A stretch of DNA of 64,000 nt from Shewanella subflava (lineage in GTDB: Bacteria > Pseudomonadota > Gammaproteobacteria > Enterobacterales > Shewanellaceae): contig NZ_JAPDMX010000003.1 in the NCBI RefSeq assembly GCF_025971955.1, positions 310,001 through 374,000 on the forward strand, read 5' to 3'. This document shows positions 22,898 to 38,490 of the stretch, one piece after another (the stretch's first letter is position 1; every line of letters starts with the position of its first letter). The position numbers and the translations under genes are program-made. Under the pieces are notes generated by a model. It had not been told where the DNA came from and did no database searches. It saw only the letters and a program-made list of their open reading frames with translations.

Positions 22898-22923
22898 AAA
22901 AAGCAAACTCAGGTTTGCTTTTT
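22898..22923 (+). terminator. terminator of the curA operon
   Basis: AAAAAGCAAAC and GTTTGCTTTTT form an 11-bp stem around TCAG with a following T-run, 35 bases after the DJ-1-like stop codon. Confidence 0.88.
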
Positions 22924-23180
22924 TGTTTTCTGCCCTAATTCACCTACTTCAGTAGGTGGTTATCATCAATTAGGCTTTGCCTGAAGTATGTTCAATAGCT
23001 GATTAACTCAAGTGATAGGTGAGCTTTGCTAATGGTGCGGTACAAGCTTCTAAATCAGGGATGATTTAGTAAAGCCTATAGGGATATATTTACAGCGTCT
23101 TGTTAACGCACGATAGGAAAGCGCCCTTTTAGAGAGTGATATCAAAGCCACCTTCTTCAGAAGGTGGATTCTTTACTGAA
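22919..23180. mobile_element. palindrome-flanked non-autonomous element, IS200/IS605-like (inferred)
   Basis: About 260 bases with a near-identical imperfect hairpin at each side: CACCTACTTCAGTAGGTGG (22941-22959) and CCACCTTCTTCAGAAGGTGG (23149-23168), in the same orientation. Paired subterminal hairpins are what IS200/IS605 transposases recognise, and short relatives without transposase are known as palindrome-associated elements. The left 111 bases recur at 44710-44820. No transposase or TnpB gene is present in either copy. The boundaries are estimates. A structured intergenic RNA is the alternative. Confidence 0.5.
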
Positions 23181-38049: not shown

Positions 38050-38189
38050 TCGCAACTTTGTTTTATTTTTCAGCTTATGCTGAAAAATTATAATGACAAT
38101 CTGTAGCTGAACGCCCTAGTGCATATATCTAATCCTTAGCATAAACCGTATAATTGCCGCGATTTTATGGTCATGATGACTAGTCAATC

Positions 38190-38362
38190 TTTTGTGGTGC
38201 CGCACGTTTAACTGGCGTGTGGATAATCGGGAAATCAGTGCAAATCTGATACTGCCCCCGCAACGGTGAAAGGTTAGGGCAATGTGAAATAGCACATGGC
38301 TCGTTTGTAGAATGTATTATTCTGGCAAAATACCTCAGTCCGGAGACCGGCCCTAAAGATGA
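38190..38362 (+). ncRNA. cobalamin riboswitch
   Basis: The conserved core is plain: the box CTGCCCCCGCAACGGT at 38252-38267 (junction and L-element of the cobalamin aptamer), preceded by GGGAAATCAGTGCAAATCTGA (P5 and flank), and the closing CAGTCCGGAGACCGGCC at 38336-38352. The leader is 130 bases before the TonB receptor gene. Downstream, GGGCAG (38378-38383) can pair with CTGCCC (38456-38461) just before the ribosome binding site, a plausible expression platform. Binding of adenosyl- or other cobalamin would shut off receptor synthesis. Confidence 0.92.
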
Positions 38363-38490
38363 TTTTGAGATTTCGGTGGGCAGATCTTAAGATGTAATAA
38401 GCTATTTGAAATTTGACTCTTACGGAGTTATTTGAAGGCATTTTATTACGACGCAACTGCCCCATTTTCCCTTTTAGGAGTTAAAGGTAA

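Follow-up and report, generated by a model that had tools for sequence, protein, structure and literature searches.

A miniature IS200-group element behind intrinsic terminators of Shewanella subflava, and a landing habit also seen in copies of classical IS200

What is the short, palindrome-flanked segment that follows a 228-aa gene in Shewanella subflava, and how did it come to lie there? We analyzed a window of 64,000 nucleotides (the whole stretch, positions 310,001 to 374,000 of contig NZ_JAPDMX010000003.1), in which positions 22926-23176 are a non-autonomous element of the IS200 group (Table 1). A sequence-only reading had described two near-identical hairpins of the same orientation about 190 bases apart with no open frame in the middle. 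Both observations hold: the hairpins were found in identical orientation with about 190 nt separating them, and the ORF list contains no frame of at least 80 aa between the element ends. Bases 22900-22925 make up the upstream gene's terminator, which places the start of the element itself at about 22926; the element ends in TTTAC (23172-23176). GTAG is present within the left stem. Elsewhere in the window, a cobalamin riboswitch was identified at 38178-38369 (77.4 bits).

Table 1. Features of the element and its surroundings, in window coordinates.
Feature	Position	Strand	Details
Upstream gene, 228 aa	22178..22864	+	from the ORF list; its terminator is the target
Intrinsic terminator of upstream gene (target site)	22900..22925	+	stem AAAGCAAAC / GTTTGCTTT, then T-tract
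IS200-type left end	22926..22987	+	begins TTTTC, includes hairpin 22941-22958; common to tnpA-bearing L073 and L061
Left hairpin	22941-22958		CACCTAC-TTCA-GTAGGTG
Breakpoint	22995..22996	.	about 60-110 bp extra here in longer copies L048-L050, L053, L054
Three-way-junction module	23035..23111	+	outer stem, hairpin 1 23050-23069, hairpin 2 23077-23088, GGA loops
IS200-type right end	23113..23176	+	guide-like AAAG 23144-23147, hairpin 23148-23167, cleavage-like TTAC 23173-23176
Right hairpin	23148-23167		CCACCTTC-TTCA-GAAGGTGG

A search of the host genome with the element returned 50 matching rows, some of which are pieces of one copy. We aligned 40 copies with 79-96% identity to the window copy, counting only the first half of each of two tandems (L017 and L052). 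The consensus of the copies runs from TTTTCAGCCCTAAACCACCTACTTCAGTAGGTGGTTATCATC on the left to AAAGCCACCTTCTTCAGAAGGTGGATTCTTTAC on the right. In the tandem copies (L017 1501-1951 and L052 1001-1400) one element directly follows the right end of another (...TTTACTTTCAGCCC...), as though a right end could itself be a target, consistent with the idea of end mimicry set out below. One copy (L042, around 1001) lies within the apparent start of a signal-peptide gene (ATGAAAAAACTGATGCTC...) and not behind a terminator. Named Shewanella and Vibrio records contain 34 stretches with an exact match to the 41-base left end; the Vibrio occurrences (L123, L131, L138, L140, L149, L150) suggest transfer between genera. 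In the relative G013, an element behind what is by eye an rplT-like gene is broken by an insertion sequence (IS630-like, also by eye) whose own frame is in pieces (L056 1001-2356).

Relatives contain elements of about 620-640 bp that have these same ends and a single gene, for an IS200-type transposase (L073 in G028, and L061, a broken one, in G013); the same kind of ends was found in many of L076-L105. Full-length elements sharing both ends, which the earlier reading had proposed to look for, are therefore represented by the tnpA-bearing L073, with no tnpB where read, and the assignment of the window segment to a non-autonomous IS200/IS605 element is borne out by the common ends and the roughly 40-fold dispersal. 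The transposase of L073 is a Y1_Tnp protein (PF01797, 3e-38), scores 147 bits against the NCBIfam IS200 transposase model NF033573 (cut-off 55) and is similar to the solved transposases of IS608 and relatives. It falls below the REP_Tyr model for the RAYT-type transposases of REP / RAYT systems (26.6 bits vs. a cut-off of 80). Thus, elements with these ends encode a Y1 (HUH) transposase and bear subterminal hairpins of one orientation at both ends, as is characteristic of the IS200 group.

Matches to the L073 transposase at E <= 1e-20 occur in 26 of 116 family genomes, some of them solely to relatives of about 35% identity, and a class-wide search for the clade at E <= 1e-35 recovered it in 2 of 321 genomes. 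Judged by this sample of genomes the clade has a narrow spread, yet 331 plasmid records match at 60-80%. The window's own genome, a possibly incomplete assembly of 34 contigs, yielded no tnpA from this clade at E <= 1e-20. The sole Y1_Tnp hit there (L036 1400-2400) contains one in-frame TAG and adjoins a frame that is tnpB-like by eye; its hairpin (CCCCGAACTTCAGGTCGGGG) differs from those of the element, though the loop ACTTCAG is in common. As no tnpA of the clade was found and the only Y1_Tnp element has a different hairpin, the host's copies are gene-less derivatives, presently without a partner in this assembly.

The sequence-only reading had further suggested that the middle might be an omega-RNA remnant of the kind associated with TnpB; on that view the segment would descend from an IS605 or IS1341-type element that had tnpB. 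The palindromic ends are of the same family, and the tnpB-like frame beside the host's other Y1 transposase would be in keeping with such an origin. This part of the reading was not supported: that transposase has a different hairpin, L073 and L061 carry tnpA alone within the ends of interest, the middle is part of another repeat family, and nothing in the element reaches an Rfam gathering score, omega RNA included. The Rfam matches obtained for the region in E-value mode are weak: they fall far short of the cut-off or belong to RNAs of unrelated types. We consider descent from a tnpB-bearing element very improbable.

The position occupied by the element is the T-tract of an intrinsic terminator. 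Using a strict test (a perfect stem of 5 or more pairs, 3 or more of them G-C, followed by a 7-base stretch that includes at least 5 T), we identified a terminator in the left flank of 30 of the 40 host copies, in none of the right flanks and in none of the sequences 300 nt upstream; dinucleotide-shuffled left flanks pass in a mean of 0.5 and a maximum of 2 of 40. The 50-base left flank folds at z < -2 in 35/40 copies, compared with 2/40 for the right flank and 1/40 for 300 bases upstream. Ten copies do not pass the strict test. Five of these fold at z below -3 (L011, L038_2586, L040, L043, L052); the five without such folding are L005, L006, L017, L042 and L045, and in L006 and L045 the left end is altered. 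On the opposite strand, the right flank (pointing at the element) passes in 0/40 copies and the left flank in 15/40, and therefore many of these terminators are two-way. The nearest ORF on the left is co-directional, reading towards the element, in 39/40 copies.

These distributions bear on the possibility that any T-rich single-stranded stretch serves as target and that purifying selection purges genic insertions, so that survivors are found after terminators. The left ends start with T's and the targets are T's, any insertion sequence would be expected to survive between genes, and the copies counted here are survivors only. However, among T-runs of at least 5 in 400 kb of relatives (a control that includes coding DNA), a terminator hairpin precedes 126/1445, in contrast to 30/40 copies; T-runs as such fail to explain the left-flank terminators. 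In addition, a reversed element would be equally harmless, yet the right flank gives 0/40 on each strand, and the consistent direction of the left ORF and the cuts at the T-tract end in E. coli empty sites (below) also argue against survival alone. We think this explanation unlikely.

The transposase-bearing elements show a similar placement. The script delineated a left end in 27 of 36 tnpA loci (it found none in the other nine), and 22 of the 27 pass the strict test. The failures are L077, L085, L180, L182 and L088, of which the last reflects an end misplaced by the script; by eye, a terminator precedes L088. Also preceded by a terminator by eye are a Photobacterium element (80% identity), the Salmonella plasmid element L290 (64%) and two close E. 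coli elements, L308 and L309. No terminator was seen at two enterobacterial relatives of the 64% clade, L292 and L310, the match of the latter beginning 35 bases in. Among distant Y1 relatives (L094, L095, L097-L101, L293), whose left ends are undelineated, none was seen by eye directly before the first hairpin. Because of these relatives, the terminator habit is not universal, and is at most a property of the group rather than of the whole family.

Was the terminator there before the element? In three relatives (G008, G020 and G088), the matching terminator of Table 1 is present and the element is absent. At the junction, the host reads GGTTTGCTTTTTTGTTTT followed by CTGCCC..., and G008 reads GGTTTGCTTTGTTGTTTT followed by ATCAGCC. 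Eleven of the 40 loci, the window locus and ten chosen mainly for nearby ORFs, were compared with G008; at all 11, G008 has a bare terminator that passes the strict test and lacks any exact fragment of the element's two ends. Junctions are clean within a few bases at L002, L003, L012, L015 and L019, and the right flank aligns less well at L008, L041 and L046. By these alignments, the terminators predate the element.

The same comparison addresses a fixed structured RNA gene of the host, or a terminator-associated regulatory element. The middle does contain a covarying module and the copies do lie at transcript 3' ends, as such a function might require. However, the empty orthologous sites at the window locus and the ten further loci empty in G008, together with the IS-like structure of the ends and the dispersal to about 40 places, make this reading highly doubtful; the intergenic RNA conserved in all strains that the sequence-only reading had named as evidence against itself is not what the relatives contain.

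The ends shared with tnpA elements, the approximately 40 dispersed copies, the empty orthologous loci, the pre-existing terminators, the single orientation relative to the upstream ORF and, in relatives, the placement of the top strand on the lagging-strand template (below) together indicate that the segment is, very probably, a non-autonomous miniature of the IS200 group that a Y1 (HUH) TnpA mobilizes in trans; most likely it reaches terminators because they would mimic its own end. As an element it is of an ordinary kind, a miniature IS200 derivative; the target habit, which we did not find described, extends beyond it.

Element orientation was compared with the direction of replication in relatives. 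All 36 tnpA copies in relatives with dnaA placed run with the replication fork, and the same holds for 31 of the 35 left ends in G013 and G023; three of the four left ends that run against it lie <300 kb from the presumed terminus. A copy that runs with the fork has its top strand on the lagging-strand template, and this is therefore the arrangement of 67/71 elements in relatives, the host genome being in 34 contigs. For IS608 and ISDra2, too, the lagging-strand template is the reported strand (PMC6006769, excerpt). In twenty 20-kb control samples of G013 and G023, 99/178 terminator-like sites and 163/258 ORFs run with the fork; for elements vs. terminators the odds ratio is 13 (p 3e-10), the copies being not fully independent. 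The tnpA copies come mostly from genomes other than G013 and G023, and terminators in the control were required to have stems of 6 pairs, compared with 5 in the flank tests. Left off the tnpA list were Y1 hits of about 35% identity, genomes without placed dnaA (drafts, G051 and others), G114 (two contigs) and the G124 fragment at 2056068. The G013 left end at 2883311 was counted solely as tnpA, and most genome lengths were rounded in setting the terminus. The G023 record begins near the terminus, and placement of dnaA turned a seeming inversion into agreement.

IS200 is among the longest-known insertion sequences. The transposase of IS200F is only about 35% identical to that of L073, and a shared habit was not expected. 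We sampled 13 of 40 listed IS200C/F hits plus L291, all near full length and picked blind to their flanks. The strict test finds a terminator before 12 of these 14, and L297 and L305 follow an imperfect-stem terminator by eye, giving 14/14 by eye; the terminators of L302 and L305 are near-identical and possibly one site. At three empty E. coli sites the cut (^) lies at the end of the T-tract: GGATGGTTTTTTTTT^GTCTATAG at rlmB, CTGGCCTTTTT^ATTACTGC at yfeX (ATTACTG after the cut), and GGCCG, eight T (seven before the element), ^GCC at fbaB. No target-site duplication was seen at these three IS200C sites. Empty sites of the Shewanella type show a T-rich ambiguity of about 4 nt, and the exact cut is ambiguous by that much because the left end starts with T's.

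Of 5426 complete E. coli genomes, 2040 contain a copy that matches at least 80% of the IS200F query. IS200 is described as over-represented between convergent genes (PMC9208149, excerpt), which fits insertion at 3' ends. A terminator-like stem-loop of IS200's own has also been described (PMC2515195, in the part consulted); we infer this to be the left-end hairpin, distinct from the locus-specific terminators considered here. We found no report of terminator targeting by IS200 in a search of an open-access collection of papers, and prior notice elsewhere is possible.

How might a terminator attract such an element? An IS200-type Y1 (HUH) transposase, still present in relatives, would move the gene-less element in trans, probably excising it as single-stranded DNA from the lagging-strand template. 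Insertion would take place where a terminator hairpin and T-tract lie exposed on that template. There the terminator, a hairpin with a T-rich tail of about 6-9 nt, would take the place of the right end that the element itself carries (hairpin plus ATTCTTTAC), which would put the cut immediately 3' of the T-tract. An insertion at that point would leave the upstream gene and its terminator intact. The terminator is most likely a stand-in for the right end; if it occupies the right-end site, the presence of a hairpin, the cut 3' of the T-tract and the fixed orientation would all follow. In IS608, the target is chosen by a guide 5' of the left hairpin that pairs with a tetranucleotide (PMC5934647, excerpt). 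At the left, the guide of the present elements is TAAA or AAAA, and in the window copy TAAT; such a guide fits a T-rich target. A broader claim, that the IS200 group consists of transposons that target the intrinsic terminator itself, with TnpA recognizing the lagging-strand hairpin and T-tract as a mimic of the right end, seems to us evenly poised between right and wrong.

The middle of the element contains a covarying module that belongs to a different repeat, a hairpin dispersed among gammaproteobacteria. The module has three helices, with changes on both sides in 15/19 pairs across 16 sequences, and 94% of cells pair, compared with 29-41% in slid controls. The covariance model of the module scores the window copy, which is among its building sequences, at 84.7 bits, and matches 28/114 gammaproteobacterial genomes including the host, seven of them with at least 30 matches, the scoring being capped at 41. 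Standalone modules (L225-L238, L249-L288) are the tips of hairpins, with a 52-nt three-way-junction tip bearing two GGA loops. In the 45 of 55 loci that fit the pattern used (10 did not), the arms have a median length of 30 and a mean complementarity of 91%, with sequence that varies between copies, and the core is exactly 52 bases in 41/45. Long element copies from relatives (L187, L118, L121) contain two modules in opposite orientations, the second, inverted one at the breakpoint of Table 1; the window copy retains one. Independent capture of a module in G023 was considered and dropped in view of these two-module copies, as G023 may simply keep the other module. The idea that standalone arms are made anew with each insertion is weakened by the arms of G240 and G246, which are related, of near-fixed length and carry compensating changes.

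The nearest Rfam family to the module is Ysr224 (RF02770), a weak match: standalone modules reach at best E 2.2e-5, on the opposite strand, with 38 bits vs. a gathering score of 70, and the window copy scores 15.9 bits. No other name was found. TwoAYGGAY RNA, a candidate identity, is absent from the Rfam matches listed. GGA loops are also a motif of CsrA-binding decoys. A decoy or sponge reading was not supported, as the GGA strand is not preferentially sense (sense 9, antisense 17 for standalone copies between co-directional ORFs; 44 of 54 standalone copies scored, with crude ORFs). Two standalone copies, L234 and L238, apparently lie inside operons (hisA-hisF and rimM-trmD, names by eye), and divergent ORF pairs around standalone copies are rare (2/37 of those having both neighbors called).

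If the target is indeed structural, a hairpin and T-tract on the lagging-strand template, it would explain the harmlessness and the orientation of IS200 and would link single-strand transposition to terminator structure. It would also provide the programmable-transposon field with a natural example of structure-directed targeting, and would account for the safe-haven habit of a textbook insertion sequence and its miniatures across Enterobacterales and marine gammaproteobacteria. In the genome of the window, the same habit has carried the gene-less element to about 40 gene ends.

Among known systems, IS200C and IS200F of E. coli and Salmonella are likewise short, carry subterminal hairpins and lie at the terminator T-tract; unlike the window element they have tnpA, their end sequences differ and their transposase is the distant one noted above. 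IS608 of H. pylori resembles these elements in its homologous Y1/HUH transposase and its one-orientation hairpins at both ends, and in the pair of AAAG guide and TTAC cleavage-like sequence, which is found at the right end here and at the left end in IS608 (PMC5934647, excerpt); it differs in having tnpB and in targeting TTAC, whereas the window element is found at terminator T-tracts. PATE / MITE derivatives of IS200/IS605 (PMC7290912, excerpt) are also gene-less, keep both ends and are mobile in trans, although the PATE of that paper keeps a piece of tnpB and the interior of the present elements contains one or two copies of an unrelated structured repeat. Ysr224, a Yersinia sRNA, resembles the standalone relatives of the module but matches on the opposite strand and under the gathering score. 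Group II (class C) introns are described as landing in the same place, behind intrinsic terminators (PMC7923331, excerpt). They are RNA-based retroelements, however, and the window has no Rfam group II intron match, and the partner gene encodes a Y1 transposase; the chance that the element is an intron-like retroelement of this kind is close to negligible.
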